The notes beneath the pieces are model-generated. The model saw only the letters and a list, made by a program, of their open reading frames with translations, had not been told where the DNA came from and searched no databases. From Nanobdellati archaeon (GTDB lineage: Archaea > EX4484-52 > WAPT01), in the NCBI GenBank assembly GCA_015520605.1, contig WAPT01000004.1:1-46359 (forward strand): 46,359 nucleotides of DNA, read 5' to 3'. The position numbers were made by a program, and so were the translations under genes. The stretch's first letter is position 1. Every line of letters starts with the position of its first letter. This document shows, in pieces, positions 1,581-45,205 of this stretch.

Positions 1581-1832
1581 ATGGTGGTTGACATTAAGAA
1601 GGAGATCATCCTAAATCATGAACTCGTTCCGAAGCATGAGATTCTCAGTGAGGAAGAAACCCAAGAGCTTTTGGAGAAACTCGGGATAAGCAAAAAACAA
1701 CTACCCAGAATTTATGCTTCAGACCCCGTTGCCAAGATTCTCGGAGCAAAGCCGGGTGATGTAATAAAGATAACGAGGAAGAGTCCAACGGCCGGAGAAT
1801 CCATATATTATAGGGTGGTGGTTAAGGGATGA
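1581..1832 (+). CDS. rpoH: DNA-directed RNA polymerase subunit H (Rpo5/RpoH)
   Basis: An 83-residue protein matching the archaeal H subunit, which corresponds to the C-terminal domain of eukaryotic Rpb5 and sits in the lower jaw of RNA polymerase near downstream DNA. The typical family pattern is visible: an N-terminal [11 protein letters not shown] segment, a central [12 protein letters not shown] motif, and a C-terminal [18 protein letters not shown] turn followed by a YYRVVV strand. Full length for the family. The ATG at 1581 starts at the conserved N-terminus. The stop overlaps the rpoB start by four bases (1829-1832), the usual order and coupling in archaeal rpo operons. Confidence 0.97.
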
Positions 1833-4800
1833 ACCTGGGTAAGAGTTTTTTGGACGAACTTGCAAATGATGGGGCGCTGGCAAGACACCAGATAGAATCT
1901 TATAATGATTTTGTCACCAGAAGACTGCAGGGAATAATCGACGAGATAGGGAAGATTCCGATAGAACTCCCAACGGGAGAGGAGCTCTACATCAAACTGG
2001 GTAAAGTGATGGTCGGAGAACCGCAGGTCAGAGAACCTGGAGGGAACATCGAGCCCATCCTTCCGCACGAAGCGAGGCTAAGGAACATAACTTACGCGGC
2101 CCCCGTTTTTGTTGAGATGACTCATGTGTTCGAGGATGTAGAGTACAATACCGAAACTGTGGAAATAGGGGAAATCCCCGTGATGGTCAAGTCCGTTCTT
2201 TGCCCGCTTTCAAAGATGAGCAGGGAGGAACTAATAAGGGTCGGAGAGGATCCTGACGATCCCGGCGGGTACTTCATAATCAACGGTACTGAGAGAGTTG
2301 TGGTTATTTCTGAGGAGGTGGCTCCCAACAGGTTGATACTCCAGAAGAAGAAAGGGGAGTATTTTATTAGGATAAACTCAGAAAAGAGGGGGTTTGTCCA
2401 AAAACACATATTTGAGAGGCAGAAGGACGGGATAATAACCACAAGGCTTACCGGGGTGCAGCAGCCCATCCCGCTGATAGCGGTGATAAAGGCTCTGGGC
2501 ATGGACAGTGATAAGGATATAATCGAAACTATAAATGCAGAGGAGGACGAGCTGGAGGATGTGTACCTCAACATTTATGGTGTTGAGGTGTACGGGAAAG
2601 ATGATGCTGTGGATTACCTCGGTAGAAAGATGAAGATAACTCAAAAAGAACAGAGACCCGAGAGGGTCTATCACCTCCTCGACAATTATTTCCTACCGCA
2701 TCTTGGAACAACCCCTGCAAGCAGGCTAATTAAGGCGAGATACCTTGCCATGGTGATGAGGAAACTCATAAAGCTCAGAAGGGGCAAGATAGCGCCTGAT
2801 GATATAGATCACTATGCCAACAAGCGCCTCAGAATGGTCGGCGAGCTCATGGAGATGCTTGTCAGATCTGTTATTCTCGGAAGATGGGGGTTGATAGCGA
2901 GGCTGCAGTACAACTACCAGAAAATGATGAAGCGTGGCAGAAAACTCCTGAAATTGCAGAGCACGGTGGTTTCTGAAGTTTTCACCAAGCAGATAATGAG
3001 AGCTATGGCTACAGGAAACTGGGTTGGTGGAAGAACCGGAGTCTCTCAAAGACTCGAGAGAAGCAACTTCATAAGAAGCGTTGCCCATCTTAGGAGCGTT
3101 GTTTCGCCTTTATCCTCTGCACAGGAACATTTTGAAGCGAGAGAGCTCCATCCCACTCAGTGGGGCAGGATATGTGCCATAAGAACGCCTGAAGGCCAGA
3201 ACATAGGGCTCAGGAAGTTTCTTGCGATAGCCGCCGAGGTAACAACAGAAGCCACAGAGGTGGAAAACACCAAAATAATCTCCACCCTGAATGCTCTCGG
3301 TGTTAATGAAAAGGACAGAGTAGGAACTGAGGTTTACCTTAACGGTAACTTCATTGGATACCACCTGGACGGCAAGAAGCTTGCCGAGATGCTGAGAGAG
3401 AAGAGGAGGAAGGGTGTCATAACAAGGAGAATGAATGTCGCATATTCTGCTGATAGGAACGAGGTTGTCATAAACACCGATGCCGGCAGGGCGAGAAGAC
3501 CTCTCATTGTTGTTGAGAAAGGAAAATCAAAACTTACCCAGGAGTTGAAAGAGAAGCTCCTTAAGGGAGAGATAACATGGAAGGACCTCGTGGAGAAGGG
3601 AATAGTTGAGTACCTCGATGCTGAGGAAGAAGAAAACGCTTATGTCGCTCTTCGGGAGGAGGATCTGACGGAGGAACACACACATTTGGAGATTGACCCG
3701 CTTTTCATACTCGGAGTTGACGCTTCCCTCCTTGTGCTTGCGGAGAAGGACAGGGGTGACAGGCTGAACTACGGTACGAGAATGATAGTGCAGTCCCTCG
3801 GGCTTTACATGAAAAACTACCTCATAAGAACAGACACATCAGCATATCTCCTCGCTTACCCGCAGCTTCCGATAATAGCCTCTGATGCCTCGAAATTTGC
3901 AGGGTTGGAGGAGCATCCAACTGGCCAGAACCTCGTCATTGCTGTAATGCCCTTTGAAGGTTATAACATGGAAGATGCGCTCATCGTCAACAAAGCTTCG
4001 ATAGAAAGAGGAATGGGCAGGTCATACTTCTACAGGACATATATAACAGAGGCAACTAGGTATTGGGGAGGACAGGAGGATGAGATAAGGATCCCTGACC
4101 CAACCGTCAGGGGCTTCAAGGGTGACTTTGCATACAGACATCTTGATGAGGACGGAATCGTGCCTCCCGAGACAGAGGTTAAGGGCAACGATGTGCTGGT
4201 GGGTAAAATTTCTCCAATAAGATTCCTCGGGGTTCTCAAGGAGGTCAGGATGGGAATAAAAGCGGTGAGGGACAACTCTGAGACCGTAAATCCGAGAGAG
4301 GACGGTATAGTGGACAAAGTTATTGTGACGGAGAACGATGAGGGCGATAAGCTTGTAAAGGTGACGGTTAGGGAGCCCAAAATGCCTGAAATTGGAGACA
4401 AATTCGCAACGAGGCACGGGCAGAAGGGAGTTATAGGTCTCATAGTTCCGGAGCAGGACATGCCATTCACCAGGGATGGTATAACACCCGATATCATAAT
4501 AAACGCTCATGCCATTCCATCCAGAATGACTGTTGGCCAACTTCTGGAAATCATAGGTGGTAAGGCCGCAGCTCTGGCAGGGGAGAGGATGAATGGTACG
4601 GTCTTCAAGTCTAACGAAGAGATGATAATAAAGGCTTTAGAGAAGGCTGGCTTTAGATATGACGGTAAGGAAGTGCTGTATGATGGTGTCACCGGCAAGA
4701 AATACGAGGTACACATTCTCGTAGGGGTGGGTCATTACTTCAGGCTGTACCATATAGCATCACACAAGATACACGCAAGGGCAAGGGGTCCCGTTACCCT

Positions 4801-11695: not shown

Positions 11696-11767
11696 AAAAA
11701 TAAGCGCATATAAAATTTTAAATAAGGAAAGCACGAGTCTTGAACTCTTGGAACCTGTGCGAAAACC

Positions 11768-11776
11768 TTTATATGG
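11768..11776 (+). promoter_or_regulatory. TATA box of the AFOR-type gene
   Basis: The sequence CTTTATATG, preceded by GAAAAC, lies about 26 bp upstream of ATG 11799. This is the archaeal TATA-to-start distance of a leaderless transcript. It decides the start codon: the upstream in-frame ATG at 11748 would lie before the TATA box. Confidence 0.75.
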
Positions 11777-11798
11777 TTTTTCTACCAATTACACCTTC

Positions 11799-13781
11799 AT
11801 GCCGCTGCCGGAAAGAAAAGCACTATTCATCGATACTGGCCAGAGAGAGTGGAGGATTGAAGAGGTTGAGGACGAAAGAATTCTGGGTGTCCTTGACTTT
11901 GGTGTTGAAATGCATCTGAACAGATATGAGTCGTGGCGTCACCATCCGATCAGTCCAAAAAATGCTCTCATCTTCGGAGTTGGACCGCTTGCCGCATCCA
12001 ATATTCCGGGCACGCACCGCCTGATCTTTTGTGCGAGGTCCCCTATTTGGAAAGGGTTCTTTACATCCACCATGGGCGGAGCAGGCTACGTTTTTTGCGG
12101 GTTGAATGTTAACTTCTGTTCGATAGAGGGAGAAAGCAGCACACCTCTCATACTCAGAATCTCTAACATAAACGGCAAACTTAATGTGGAGTTCTTCGAG
12201 ATGGACAATGACCAGCTGCTTGCCATCTACGGTGGCTACAGGGGCAAGCGCGGCCTTTACGCTCTTCAGCAGTACGTCATAGACAACTATGGAAACGTGT
12301 TCGTTGATAACAACATTCCGTTCAGGGTTCTTGCCGTGGGACCGGCAGCGCTGAACACATACTACGGAGCTATATGCTCAACAGTCATAAGAAATGGCAA
12401 AATGCTTGATGGCATAAATGAATTTGCCGGAAGGGGTGGCTTGGGCAGCGTTATGGCTCAAGCTCACGGTGTTGTTGCGGTAATTTACGGTGGGAACGAC
12501 TGTCACAAACACGAGAAGCTGAGCGATCAGCAATTTGTGGAGAGAATCTTTGAGGAGGAGTTCGGAAAGAAGATGATAGAAGTCATTATGGAGAAGGGTA
12601 AAAAGTACTACTACGATCCTGCCGTTGGGTCTGGAGGAACCTACGGGGTAAACTTCTCCACTCTGGGATCATGGCTGCTCTTCCTCAACTGGTCTTCCGT
12701 GTACTGGAGTGAGGAGAAGAGGCAGGAAGCGTACGAGAAGCTGATAAAGAATCATTATCTCAAACAGTTTAATGAGGAGATTATCAAACCAAGAAAGTTC
12801 ATGAACTGTGGAGAGCCATGCCCGCTCGTGTGCAAAAAGTATTCAGACTACAAGAGGGATTATGAACCCTACGAGGCTAATGGACCTAATGCCGGGATTG
12901 TTGATATGAAGGCAGCAGACATGGTGGTGGAGAAGGTAGACGAGCTCGGATTTGACGCTATACAGATAGGCACCATAATCTCTTGGATAATGGAACTTAT
13001 GCACCGCAACATGCTGAAGCCAGAGGACTTTGATCTGAAAAAGAAACCCGCATTTGATATTGACAGGCTGGACGTAAAAGCATCGTTCCATAACGCTGAG
13101 ATTGCCGTGAAACTCGTTGAAAAGATAGCTTATGGAGAAGATCTCGGTAAAATTTTCGCGCAAGGTATAAGACTTGCGGCTGAAGACCTTGAATCCATGT
13201 TCCATCATCCCGCTCACGAAGGGGAGTTCAAGGACTTTGCTGTTTACACCCCTTATGGGGAAGATGGAGAGATAGCTCCATGCCAGTACTGGGTTCCTGG
13301 CTTTTTCATTCCGTTACCCATTCAGGGTAAGTTCCTCACATATTATCATGCTGAGTGGCTCGATCCCTACGAGCTCGGAAGGAAGAGTGGGGAGCGCACG
13401 ATAAAGGAGCTTTACTCTACCAACAACGGGCTCTGCAGGTTCCATCGGGGGTGGAGTGAGAAGATAATAGAGCGCATAGTCAATGAGGCTTTTGAGACTA
13501 CCATAAACTTCTACGAGCATCACAGAAGGCTCGCTGCAAGGATCTGGCTGTATGATGAGAGATGCAGTCTCAAGCCCACATTCTGGGACTCGGAAAGGGT
13601 TGTGGATGTGATATGGAAGCACATAGAGAAACTTTACGAGGGAAATAAGCAGAACAAGGAGCTGAAAAAATGGGTGGAGATGTTCCGTAAAGACAAGTGG
13701 CTGGCAGCAAAACATTACTGGCTCAGGGTGCTGGATGGAATTCACGACGCTATCGGGATGGAGAGGGAGGTAAAGATCTGA
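11799..13781 (+). CDS. Aldehyde:ferredoxin oxidoreductase-family tungsten enzyme
   Basis: A 660-residue AOR-family protein that would oxidise aldehydes (or a related substrate) at a tungsten bis-pterin centre and pass electrons to ferredoxin. The start at ATG 11799 is set by the leaderless promoter. The 4Fe-4S ligands are C337, C341 and C345 (NCGEPCPLVC) plus C495 (IAPCQYW); the spacing is C-x3-C-x3-C rather than the C-x2-C-x3-C of Pyrococcus AOR. Pterin-binding segments such as GGAGYVFCGLN, GRGGLGSVMAQAHG and ELGFDAIQIGTIISW are recognisable. It stands alone with no ferredoxin or pterin gene nearby, so its substrate cannot be read from context. Its 3' end overlaps the convergent metallopeptidase gene by 32 bp. 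Confidence 0.9.
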   Translation: MPLPERKALFIDTGQREWRIEEVEDERILGVLDFGVEMHLNRYESWRHHPISPKNALIFGVGPLAASNIPGTHRLIFCARSPIWKGFFTSTMGGAGYVFCGLNVNFCSIEGESSTPLILRISNINGKLNVEFFEMDNDQLLAIYGGYRGKRGLYALQQYVIDNYGNVFVDNNIPFRVLAVGPAALNTYYGAICSTVIRNGKMLDGINEFAGRGGLGSVMAQAHGVVAVIYGGNDCHKHEKLSDQQFVERIFEEEFGKKMIEVIMEKGKKYYYDPAVGSGGTYGVNFSTLGSWLLFLNWSSVYWSEEKRQEAYEKLIKNHYLKQFNEEIIKPRKFMNCGEPCPLVCKKYSDYKRDYEPYEANGPNAGIVDMKAADMVVEKVDELGFDAIQIGTIISWIMELMHRNMLKPEDFDLKKKPAFDIDRLDVKASFHNAEIAVKLVEKIAYGEDLGKIFAQGIRLAAEDLESMFHHPAHEGEFKDFAVYTPYGEDGEIAPCQYWVPGFFIPLPIQGKFLTYYHAEWLDPYELGRKSGERTIKELYSTNNGLCRFHRGWSEKIIERIVNEAFETTINFYEHHRRLAARIWLYDERCSLKPTFWDSERVVDVIWKHIEKLYEGNKQNKELKKWVEMFRKDKWLAAKHYWLRVLDGIHDAIGMEREVKI

Positions 13782-29831: not shown

Positions 29832-29897
29832 ATGTTCCTCGCGGATTTTCTAAATCCTGTAAAGATCTTGCCTGCGGGGCTGGTTGAGCATGGTTGA
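29832..29897 (+). CDS. Possible 21-residue leader peptide overlapping gyrB
   Basis: Reads MFLADFLNPVKILPAGLVEHG, then TGA. Its ATG falls at the predicted transcription start, so it would be translated leaderless. Its last codons overlap ATG 29890 of gyrB in another frame, an arrangement that could couple translation of the two. There is no family match, and the ORF could be chance. Confidence 0.3.
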   Translation: MFLADFLNPVKILPAGLVEHG

Positions 29898-31806
29898 GGA
29901 AAGAAGGGAAAGCTATAACGCTTCAGCGATCAAAGTTCTGGAGGGGTTGGAAGCTGTAAGAAGGAGGCCCGCGATGTATATCGGTAGTGTGGGGAAGCGT
30001 GGTCTTCATCACCTTATCAATGAGGTGGTGGATAACAGCGTTGATGAAGCGCTGGCAGGGTACTGTACAAGAATAGTTTTAACGCTTCATTCTGACGGTT
30101 CGGTGAGCGTGGAGGACAACGGCAGGGGTATTCCGGTTGACATACACCCCCAGTACGGCATCTCAGCTCTCGAGCTTGTGATGACGAAGCTTCATGCTGG
30201 AGGTAAGTTCGACAGGAAGGTGTATAAGGTTTCTGGCGGACTGCATGGAGTAGGTGTCAGCGTTGTCAATGCTCTTTCTGAATGGATGGAGGTCATAGTG
30301 AAAAGAGACGGAAAGGTATGGAGGCAGCGCTATCAGCGGGGCAAACCCATAACTCCGGTTGAAGTTATAGGAGAGACGAAAGAGACAGGAACCTACGTCA
30401 GGTTTAAGCCTGATCCGGAAATATTTGATGATACAAGGTTTGATCCATCCGTTATTGAATCAAGACTTAAAGAGCTTGCTTACCTCAATCCCGGACTTGA
30501 AATAATATTGATCAATGAGAAAGCTGGCGAGAAAAAGGTGTTCAAGTTTGAGAGGGGAATTATGGATCTTGTCAGGGATCTCACGCGAGAAAAAGGCCCG
30601 CTTCATGAGGACATCATTTATATTCGGGGAGAACAGAACGGCGTGGTGGTGGAAGTTGCTCTTCGTTACACTCAGATGGATGGTTCGAGTGAGTTCTCCT
30701 TTGCCAACAACATAAATACAATAGAGGGTGGAACACATCTCACAGGATTCAGGATGGCGCTCACCAAAGCTGTAAAGGAAGCTATGGAGAAGCAGGGCTT
30801 GATAAAAGAAAAGGGACTGACAATTGAAAGTGAGGACGTAAGAGATGGCCTGACAGCTGTAATTTCCGTTAAGGTCCCCGACCCTCAGTTTGAGGGCCAG
30901 ACAAAAACAAAGCTCGGGAATACGGAGGTAAAGAACATAGTTTACAGCACAGTATATGCTAACCTCAAAGAATATTTTGAAAAGCATCCTGACACGCTTA
31001 AGACCATTGCCAACAGGATCCTGCTTGTTGCAAGAGCAAGGATAGCGGCGAAGAGGGCAAGGGAGCTTGTAAAGAGAAAGACTGCTCTGGAGTCAACGAC
31101 CCTGCCCGGAAAGCTCGCGGACTGCATAGAGAAGGATCCTGATAAGTGTGAACTCTTCATAGTGGAGGGGGAGAGCGCTGGAGGCAGCGCGAAGCTGGCA
31201 AGGACGAGAACAACGCAAGCGGTGTTGCCCCTCAGGGGGAAGATAATCAATGTGGAGAAGGCAGGATTGGTCAAAGTGCTGCGCAACGAGGAAATAAAAG
31301 CGCTTATCGCTGCTATCGGCACGGGCATCGGGGAAGAGTTCGACATAAAGAAGCTGAGGTACGGCAGGATAATCATAATGACGGATGCTGATGTTGATGG
31401 AGCGCACATAAGAACTCTGTTACTCACATTCTTCTACCGCTACATGCCGAAGCTTATAGAAGAGGAGCGCATCTATATAGCTATGCCACCCCTCTACCGC
31501 ATAAAGGCGGGGAAGGAGGTGAGATATGTTTACAGCGAGGAAGAAAAAGAAAGGGTGCTAAAGGAGCTTGAAGCTAAGGGTGTCAAGAATGTGGAGGTTC
31601 AGAGGTACAAAGGTCTGGGCGAGATGAACCCTGAGCAGCTGTGGGAGACGACCATGAATCCCGAAACCAGAGTGATAAAGAAGGTATTCATGGAGGATGC
31701 GATAGAAGCTGACAGAATCTTCTCCATTCTCATGGGTCCGGATACTCAGCCTCGAAAGGAGTTCATCATGAGTCATGCAAAAGAGGCTGTGAATATCGAT
31801 GTGTGA
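29890..31806 (+). CDS. gyrB: DNA gyrase subunit B, bacterial type
   Basis: ATPase and TOPRIM subunit of DNA gyrase, 638 residues from ATG 29890; an in-frame TTG at 29884 would add two. The GHKL ATPase shows EVVDNSVDEALAG, EDNGRGIPVD, GGKFDRKVYKVSGGLHGVG and a Gln-Thr-Lys loop (FEGQTKTKLGN). The TOPRIM domain has LFIVEGESAGGSAK (about residue 424) and MTDADVDGAHIRTLLL (about 498). The C-terminal YKGLGEMNPEQLWETTMNP block is classic. Gyrase reached Euryarchaeota from bacteria, and its pairing with gyrA here matches Archaeoglobus, halophiles and methanogens. It introduces negative supercoils. Confidence 0.98.
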   Translation: MVEERRESYNASAIKVLEGLEAVRRRPAMYIGSVGKRGLHHLINEVVDNSVDEALAGYCTRIVLTLHSDGSVSVEDNGRGIPVDIHPQYGISALELVMTKLHAGGKFDRKVYKVSGGLHGVGVSVVNALSEWMEVIVKRDGKVWRQRYQRGKPITPVEVIGETKETGTYVRFKPDPEIFDDTRFDPSVIESRLKELAYLNPGLEIILINEKAGEKKVFKFERGIMDLVRDLTREKGPLHEDIIYIRGEQNGVVVEVALRYTQMDGSSEFSFANNINTIEGGTHLTGFRMALTKAVKEAMEKQGLIKEKGLTIESEDVRDGLTAVISVKVPDPQFEGQTKTKLGNTEVKNIVYSTVYANLKEYFEKHPDTLKTIANRILLVARARIAAKRARELVKRKTALESTTLPGKLADCIEKDPDKCELFIVEGESAGGSAKLARTRTTQAVLPLRGKIINVEKAGLVKVLRNEEIKALIAAIGTGIGEEFDIKKLRYGRIIIMTDADVDGAHIRTLLLTFFYRYMPKLIEEERIYIAMPPLYRIKAGKEVRYVYSEEEKERVLKELEAKGVKNVEVQRYKGLGEMNPEQLWETTMNPETRVIKKVFMEDAIEADRIFSILMGPDTQPRKEFIMSHAKEAVNIDV

Positions 31807-31835
31807 AGACAGATTCCTGAGTTGTGGTGAATAAA

Positions 31836-34259
31836 ATGCCACACGGGTTAATGACACTTGAAGTACCGCTTGAGCAGGAAATGAAGCAGGCGTATCTTGA
31901 TTATGCGATGAGCGTTATAATAGGCAGAGCTCTGCCCGATGTTAGAGATGGCCTAAAGCCGGTTCACAGGCGCATTCTTTACGCAATGTATGAAATGGGA
32001 CTGCTCCACAACAAACCGTACAAGAAGTCCGCGAGAGTGGTTGGAGAGGTGCTGGGTAAGTACCACCCGCATGGTGACGCTTCAGTATATGATGCTCTCG
32101 TGAGGATGGCGCAGGACTTTGTTATGAACTACCCGCTGGTGGATGGTCATGGAAACTTCGGTAGCATAGATGGTGATCCTCCAGCTGCGATGCGTTACAC
32201 TGAAGTAAGGCTCTCAAAAGTAGCGGAGGGAATGCTGAAGGACATTGATAAGGAGACTGTTGATTTCGTGCCCAACTTCGATGGCACGTTAAAGGAGCCT
32301 GTGATACTGCCGGCAGCCTTCCCCAACCTTTTGGTAAATGGCTCTTCCGGAATAGCGGTGGGGATGGCTACGAACATACCACCGCACAATCTAAACGAGA
32401 TCATCGACGCGCTTGTATATCTCATAGATAACCGAAACCGCGAGATAAAGGATGAGGAGCTTCTCGCCATCGTCAAGGGCCCCGACTTTCCAACTGGTGG
32501 AATCGTTCTTGGTGTTGACGGAATAAGGAAAGCCTACCTTACGGGAAAAGGCAAGATCATAATCAGAGGCAGAGTCAATATAGAGGAAGGGAGGAGAACA
32601 ACAAAAATTGTCATAACTGAAGTGCCATATCAGGTCAACAAGGCAAGGATGATTGAAAGAATAGCTGAGCTGGTTAGGGAGGGGATCATAGACGGTATAA
32701 AGGACATAAGGGATGAGTCCGACAGAGAGGGTCTCAGGGTGGTTATCGAGTTGAGGAGGGATGCTGATGCTAACGTTGTTCTCAACCAGCTCTATAAGCA
32801 CACAGAGCTTGAGACGTCTTTTAATGTTCTGAGTCTTGCGCTGGTGGATAATCAGCCGAGGATCCTGACTCTCAGACAGATGCTGGAAGAATTTCTCAGG
32901 CACCGCTTTACAGTAATAAGGAGAAAGGCAGCTCATGAACTGAGGCTCGCAAAGGAGAGAGCACACATAGTTGACGGATTGCTTGTCGCTCTTGCAAACA
33001 TCGATGAGGTCATCGAGCTGATCAAGAAGTCGAAGGACAGAAAGGAAGCAATGCAAGCCCTCATTTCCAACTTCCAGCTCAGCGAGAAGCAGGCTGACTC
33101 TATCCTCACCATGCAGCTACAGAAGCTCACCTCGATGGAAGTTCAGAAACTAAGAGAGGAGAAGAAGGAGCTTGAAAGGAGAATAGAGAACTTGGAAAGA
33201 ATAATGAGGGACGATGATGAGGTCTACCGAATTCTCAGGGAGGAGTTTCTTGAGCTCAAGAAAGCGTACGGAAGGCCGAGGAAAACAAGCATAGAGGAAC
33301 GCTATGAAGAGATAGATCTGGAGGATCTGGTGCAGGAAGAGGAGGTCATGGTGGTCTGCACTAGGGACGGTTTTATAAAGAGAGTACCTGCAAGGCTCTA
33401 CAGGTCACAGAGGAGGGGCGGAACCGGAATAATAAGTCAGAAGAGCGGTGAGAAGGATTACACGAAGCATTTGATTGTTTGCTCTACTCATGACACACTA
33501 CTTATATTCACAACAAAAGGGATCGTAAGGGCACTTAAGGCCTATGAAGTGCCTGAAGCAAGCAGGCAAAGCAGGGGCAAGCATCTGAGCCAACTTGTTA
33601 GGCTGGGTGGTGAAGAGAGGGTTGCGACCATATTACCCCTCAAAAAGGAAAATTCCTGCAAGTACCTCATTATGTACACGAAAAGAGGTGTGGTGAAAAA
33701 GAGCGAGCTGAACCTTTTCGAAAACGTAAGACGGAGCGGAGTCATAGCGATAAAGCTTAGGAAGGATGATGAGCTTGTGGGGGCAATGCTCACATCCGGC
33801 AGAAACACAATACTCCTTGCCACAAAGAATGGTATGGCAATTCTTTTCAGAGAGGAGGATGTAAGACCTATGGGAAGGAATGCTGCAGGTGTTGCCGGCA
33901 TAAAGCTTGAGAATGATGATGAAGTTGTGAGCGGAGATGTTGCGGATACCTGTGAGTACACCCTTACTGTGACTTCGAGAGGGTTTGTAAAGAAGACGAA
34001 GCTTGATGAGTACAGGGTCATAGGCAGAGGTGGTAAGGGAGTAATCAACATAAAGGTCAGAGAAAAGAATGGAGAGGTTGTGGCGGCCCTTTGTGTGAAT
34101 GACAACGATGAACTGGTTGCCATCACCGCCAGCGGAATGGCAATAAGGGTCAGTGTGAAGAGCATACCCGAACAGGGTAGAAATGCGATGGGTGTGAGAC
34201 TCATAAAACTTAAAGAAGGAGATAGTGTGGTGGACGCTGCAAAAATAATTAATATTTAG
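31836..34259 (+). CDS. gyrA: DNA gyrase subunit A
   Basis: Breakage-reunion subunit of gyrase, 807 residues from ATG 31836, placed 6 nt after a GGTG site; an upstream in-frame GTG at 31824 is less likely. Catalytic Tyr121 lies in AAMRYTE, one residue off the E. coli numbering. The region [22 protein letters not shown] and [20 protein letters not shown] is intact. The C-terminal beta-pinwheel starts with a GyrA box, QRRGGTG (residues 525-531), which marks a true supercoiling gyrase rather than topoisomerase IV. It follows gyrB by 29 bp and forms one operon with it. Confidence 0.98.
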
Positions 34260-44790: not shown

Positions 44791-44888
44791 AATCTAAATC
44801 TGAACAGGAAAAGGTAAAAACGTAACGATTTTTGAGAGCACTATCGAAGGAATAAAAAAGATAACACCAATCCAATCCAGAAAAAGGA

Positions 44889-45057
44889 TGGTCCCGGGGG
44901 GATGTTCTGCCAGCCATCAAGTCTTATCTTATCCTTCTGGCTGGCTTTCGAACCCCCGACCTCCGGCTGGCCAAGACACGGGGGCGAAATCCATCGCAAT
45001 CTTTTGCCCCCTGTGGTCATATAAGACCGGCGCTCCAACCAGCTGAGCTACGGGACC
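44889..45057 (-). tRNA. tRNA-Ile(UAU) with two introns, one in the T-loop
   Basis: Minus strand. The acceptor GGTCCCG (45057-45051) pairs with CGGGACC (44896-44890); discriminator A; no encoded CCA. The D-arm is GCTC-AGCTGGTTG-GAGC. The anticodon stem CCGGT (45030-45026) pairs with GCCGG (44967-44963) around CTTATA, giving anticodon UAU (45023-45021). Intron 1 (about 45019-44969, 51 nt) is at the usual 37/38 site. The T-stem GGGGG (44957-44953) and CCCCC (44901-44897) enclose TTCGA, about 44 intron bases (about 44947-44904) and AT, which join to TTCGAAT. Intron 2 has a perfect GCCAGCC/GGCTGGC hairpin and GTTC/GAAC pairing near the junction. Confidence 0.85.
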
Positions 45058-45205
45058 GGGAAACCAACGGCATTGTGACGAGATATAAGTAGAAGGGTAA
45101 TTTTAAAAAATTTGCATGAAGCTGAGAATGCTTCGCCAATTCAACAGAGGTTAAGTATCTATCCTCGATATATATTTTCAAAATTCTATTTAATCCAACG
45201 AAAAG

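Follow-up and report, generated by a model that had tools for sequence, protein, structure and literature searches.

A probable tRNA-Ile(UAU) gene with two introns in a DPANN archaeon whose phylum lacks detectable TiaS

A three-exon tRNA-Ile(UAU) gene and its host

The window (the whole stretch of 46,359 nucleotides that was analysed) carries a three-exon tRNA-Ile(UAU) gene on its minus strand at 45057..44889, the reverse complement of 44889-45057. The gene is also present in two further genomes of the genus (G032 and G033), the whole precursor there being 95% and 81% identical. Its parts and flanking elements, from 5' to 3', are:

45083..45088, minus strand: TATA-box-like TTATAT, 26-31 nt upstream of the tRNA, a probable promoter element; identical in G032, replaced at roughly this position by CTATAC in G033
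45020..45057, minus strand: exon 1, with the acceptor 5' strand, D arm, anticodon 5' strand and loop up to A37, anticodon UAU; identical in G032 and G033
44969..45019, minus strand: intron 1, 51 nt at position 37/38, with bulge-helix-bulge spacing; site shared with UAU tRNAs of other DPANN genomes
44947..44968, minus strand: exon 2, with A38, anticodon 3' strand, variable region, T-stem 5' strand and T-loop TTCGAA (54-59), from the ARAGORN fold and the three-genome comparison
44903..44946, minus strand: intron 2, 44 nt at T-loop position 59/60, with a 7-bp intron helix GCCAGCC/GGCTGGC; kept in G032 and G033
44889..44902, minus strand: exon 3, with T60, T-stem 3' strand, acceptor 3' strand and discriminator A73, CCA not encoded, from the ARAGORN fold and the three-genome comparison
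44881..44885, minus strand: T5 run just 3' of the tRNA, a probable terminator; a T-run is also present in G032

The joined exons (GGTCCCGTAGCTCAGCTGGTTGGAGCGCCGGTCTTATAAGCCGGAGGTCGGGGGTTCGAATCCCCCCGGGACCA) give a 74-nt sequence that ARAGORN calls as tRNA-Ile(tat), with a full cloverleaf of 7-bp acceptor, 4-bp D, 5-bp anticodon and 5-bp T stems and A73, and leaving either intron in place abolishes the call in the default mode. A preliminary description, made from the sequence alone, had proposed a UAU anticodon in a cloverleaf that closes only once two insertions are removed, and this holds, as do its placement of the first insertion at 37/38 and its 7-bp hairpin within the second. It was also right to put the second insertion in the T-loop, although the splice point falls after TTCGAA (59/60) rather than after TTCGA, a shift that leaves the mature sequence unchanged.

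Unspliced, the gene is detected neither by ARAGORN nor by Rfam, whether in a cmscan of the window end or in a search of the whole genome with the tRNA model; with two introns, such tRNA genes are missed by standard annotation. An Rfam match to mir-204 near the window end was set aside as chance. The folding z-score of the locus is -4.5. As judged from these features, the locus is a real tRNA-Ile(UAU) gene, and the resemblance goes beyond chance similarity. Of the tRNAs compared, the organism's own tRNA-Ile(GAU) is the closest, identical at 63 of 75 positions, and A73 together with the Ile-like body is consistent with charging by IleRS. Descent from eMet or Ile2 is not favoured, the identity being 58/74 both to eMet and to an Ile2-like CAU tRNA, in a comparison of few sequences by pairwise identities only.

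The genome comprises 863 kb in 27 contigs and is 90.7% complete. The nearest RpoB sequences belong to MAGs named DPANN group archaeon (98%), archaeon (90%) and Nanohalarchaeota (about 60-64%), followed by Aenigmatarchaeota. By these neighbours the host is a DPANN archaeon and not a euryarchaeote, so the euryarchaeal setting first assumed for the locus does not apply. Elsewhere in the window, on the plus strand, lie a tRNA-Lys(CUU) at 1398-1532 that the Rfam tRNA model detects but ARAGORN does not, interrupted at 37/38 by an intron of some 60 nt; a protein akin to archaeal glyceraldehyde-3-phosphate:ferredoxin oxidoreductase at 11748-13781, far under the family cut-off (582 of 1300 bits) and of uncertain substrate; and adjoining genes for bacterial-type DNA gyrase B and A at 29884-34259, here in a DPANN archaeon.

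Distribution of TiaS and of tRNAs for AUA

The codon AUA is decoded with lysidine in bacteria, with agmatidine in archaea and by a UAU tRNA in eukaryotes. In the longer ORFs of the window AUA accounts for 445 of 915 Ile codons (49%), in line with the earlier remark that it is a frequent Ile codon here, and at this frequency it needs a good reader.

We searched whole genomes in six frames with the TiaS profile PF08489, and all four archaeal controls were positive each time. A search for tiaS had been proposed as a check, and it returned no match in the organism's own genome or in any of the 34 genomes of its phylum (7 families, 12 genera). Nor did the profile match any of the 279 genomes sampled in the phylum to which a Pacearchaeota MAG belongs. 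Among 50 named genomes, every DPANN-labelled one was without TiaS, while seven of the eight non-DPANN genomes had it (Thermofilum and relatives, Thermococci, a Euryarchaeota MAG and a Methanoflexus).

UAU tRNAs were surveyed with a pattern for the tRNA 5' half bearing this anticodon. It matched 19 of the 34 genomes of the phylum, with one copy each, including five of the seven high-quality genomes and missing the other two. Matches were found in 147 of the 279 genomes from the phylum of the Pacearchaeota MAG (about 145 after subtracting two with spurious matches alone), and ten further genomes outside the host phylum, nearly all DPANN-labelled, matched among the 50 named ones. No TiaS-bearing named genome had a UAU tRNA, and all of these had CAU tRNAs. 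In the Methanoflexus phylum three of 152 genomes matched the pattern, none credibly as a tRNA, with a D-loop far too short (GCTCAGGGAAGAGC); three similar spurious matches were discarded from the Nanoarchaeota set. Replacement of the TiaS route by the UAU tRNA, as had been suggested for this lineage, is supported by these genome searches (TiaS 0/34 and 0/279), whereas its restriction to a single lineage is not, since the pattern extends over several DPANN phyla.

A search for tRNA-Ile2(CAU) had also been recommended. A second elongator-type CAU tRNA was found by the CAU pattern in none of the phylum's genomes, each having at most one, as expected if elongator Met alone remains. The pattern is not fully sensitive, recovering at least two copies in only two of eight non-DPANN controls, and for this reason the CAU-tRNA count is weaker than the TiaS result. 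With a genome 90.7% complete and many tRNAs hidden from searches by introns, a tRNA-Ile2(CAU) could still be concealed. One could also imagine a real, spliced UAU tRNA that shares AUA with a CAU tRNA modified by some enzyme other than TiaS. The enzymes known to make agmatidine and lysidine belong to unrelated families, which makes a third, unknown one conceivable; yet since no genome of the phylum shows more than one elongator-type CAU tRNA, and one has to be elongator Met, we regard shared decoding as very improbable.

Conservation and splicing geometry

The three genomes of the genus agree in every one of the 74 exon bases and have both introns at the same sites. The introns themselves diverge, and against the more distant of the two congeners intron 1 is identical at 36 of 51 positions and intron 2 at 28 of 49. 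Their helices are preserved through these changes, with GGGGGC/GCCCCC against GGGAGC/GCTCCC in one intron and GCCAGCC/GGCTGGC against GCCAT/ATGGC in the other.

In an archaeal bulge-helix-bulge (BHB), the exon stem is separated from the intron helix by a 4-nt strand of the central helix and a 3-nt bulge, giving 7 nt on each side. A search for this motif, one of the checks first proposed, recovered the exact spacing on both sides in six of six introns (two introns in each of three genomes): the anticodon stem or T-stem is followed by 7 nt, the intron helix and again 7 nt in 3/3 genomes. Among shuffled introns, BHB spacing arose in 37 of 1800 cases for the 37/38 site and 15 of 1400 for the 59/60 site, or about 1-2%, in controls that cover the whole set of DPANN tRNAs tested rather than the genus alone. 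Cuts after the second bulge base land at 37/38 and 59/60. Both central helices are weak and relaxed, consisting of C-G, U-G, U-U (U-A in G033) and A-U at 37/38 and of U-A, U-A, C-G and G-A at 59/60. The GTTC/GAAC helix originally put forward as the BHB is one base out of the working register: cut in the standard way, it would yield a T-loop of 5 nt, and G033 (GAAA) no longer has its outer G-C pair.

The organism's genome has a single gene for the splicing endonuclease EndA (PF01974, E = 1.3e-26), located at about 1587-2200 (+) of locus L012, with a single-domain product and an open frame of about 204 aa; EndA is present in 27 of the 34 genomes of the phylum. The protein aligns with solved archaeal EndA chains, and the insert that precedes its catalytic His resembles the one in chain 3iey, possibly a feature of broad specificity.

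Nearly all DPANN UAU tRNAs that we parsed have an intron at 37/38, and an intronless UAU relative (L191) has the same A37-A38 junction. Ordinary DPANN UAU tRNAs show an intact T-loop, TTCAAAT or TTCGAAT. Introns at 59/60 in the T-loop occur in four Aenigmatarchaeota-type UAU genes (L154, L156, L158 and L159), and T-stem introns in three UAU genes (L157, L162 and L183); such T-arm introns in other DPANN archaea defeat simple tRNA finders. In the wider DPANN set, 15 of 45 introns at 37/38 and four of seven at 59/60 passed a single-structure BHB test, and on these counts many introns in DPANN archaea seem to be of a looser form than those in this genus. A 49-nt T-loop intron at 59/60 interrupts the eMet(CAU) gene of G033 (L147) but not the orthologous genes of G000 and G032 (L145/L146); the 59/60 site of eMet, compared across these genes, shows a recent intron gain or loss inside the genus.

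These observations bear on two further readings, each of which we rate a shade below shared decoding. The locus might be a tRNA pseudogene in decay, its insertions being accidental, with AUA read instead by a hidden tRNA-Ile2(CAU) that has a divergent modifying enzyme, as could be argued from the failure to detect the unspliced gene and the many tRNAs of this genome hidden by introns. Decay sits poorly with identical exons beside diverging introns whose changes keep the helices, with the exact BHB spacing and the conserved upstream sequence, and with the recurrence of UAU tRNAs across DPANN archaea without TiaS. No more probable is a tRNA spliced at 37/38 alone whose T-loop insertion stays as an enlarged T-loop hairpin: although the 59/60 central helix has only three Watson-Crick pairs and a G-A, removal of the insertion restores the T-loop 54-60 consensus TTCGAAT exactly, the BHB spacing fits precisely, introns at 59/60 are known (PMC4090602), and a similar insertion sets the G033 eMet apart from orthologues that lack one at this place.

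Proposed decoding of AUA

We conclude, with a probability of roughly 0.92, that this is a functional two-intron tRNA-Ile(UAU) that is spliced and reads AUA, in an organism where TiaS and tRNA-Ile2(CAU) would be unnecessary and TiaS is gone. The gene would be of the tRNA-Ile3 type, in a small-genome DPANN archaeon, and its precursor would carry BHB introns at 37/38 and 59/60. From the structure, EndA is predicted to cut both introns, after which the exons would be ligated. U34 of the mature tRNA would pair with AUA, no modified C34 being required, and TiaS and an agmatidine-modified tRNA-Ile2(CAU) would therefore become unnecessary. In the phylum the profile searches show TiaS to be gone, and it is apparently missing from other DPANN phyla as well. 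The tRNA would be charged by IleRS and would presumably avoid misreading AUG. From sequence and genome comparison we infer transcription, excision of both introns, Ile charging, AUA decoding and the evolutionary order of events.

DPANN monophyly is disputed, and with several DPANN phyla lacking TiaS and many of their members encoding a UAU tRNA, this trait could serve as a testable shared character. On balance we lean towards loss or primary absence of TiaS, with a UAU tRNA reading AUA, being ancestral to all DPANN rather than an oddity of Nanoarchaeum; it would then be a character that bears on DPANN monophyly and on U34/AUG misreading. The question that it raises is how U34 avoids reading AUG.

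Comparison with known systems

The agmatidine route, tRNA-Ile2(CAU) with TiaS, serves the same codon AUA. It needs modification of C34, whereas our searches here turned up no TiaS and no second elongator tRNA with CAU.

Introns at 59/60 have precedents: the position is listed among the non-canonical tRNA intron sites, and such introns abound in Crenarchaeota and Nanoarchaeota (PMC4090602). The site is the same here and the T-stem likewise forms the exon side of the BHB, while the host lineage and the tRNA differ. UAU tRNAs were initially taken to be rare in Archaea; they have already been described in Nanoarchaeum, Korarchaeum and ARMAN-2 and occur in many DPANN genomes in our survey. Both UAU tRNAs and 59/60 introns are thus known, and the more interesting part is the DPANN-wide pattern of a UAU tRNA in place of the missing TiaS. 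In the open-licence literature we came across no account of whole DPANN phyla without TiaS in which UAU tRNAs are common, and the pattern may be new, though not certainly so.

The pre-tRNA-Ile(UAU) of ARMAN-2 (Ca. Micrarchaeum acidiphilum) is, like the present one, an intron-bearing precursor from a DPANN archaeon, and it is cut in vitro by the organism's own EndA (PMC12397907). That enzyme is of the three-unit epsilon2 type (PMC12397907), in contrast to the one single-domain EndA here. Nanoarchaeum equitans and Korarchaeum cryptofilum have tRNA-Ile3(UAU) instead of tRNA-Ile2(CAU), the Korarchaeum gene containing an intron, and surveys regard these archaeal UAU tRNAs as two isolated exceptions (PMC6000648; PMC8450103). 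Our organism resembles both in that UAU replaces CAU, and Korarchaeum also in the intron-bearing gene; it differs in having two introns, one of them in the T-loop, and in that the trait is found across a different DPANN phylum.
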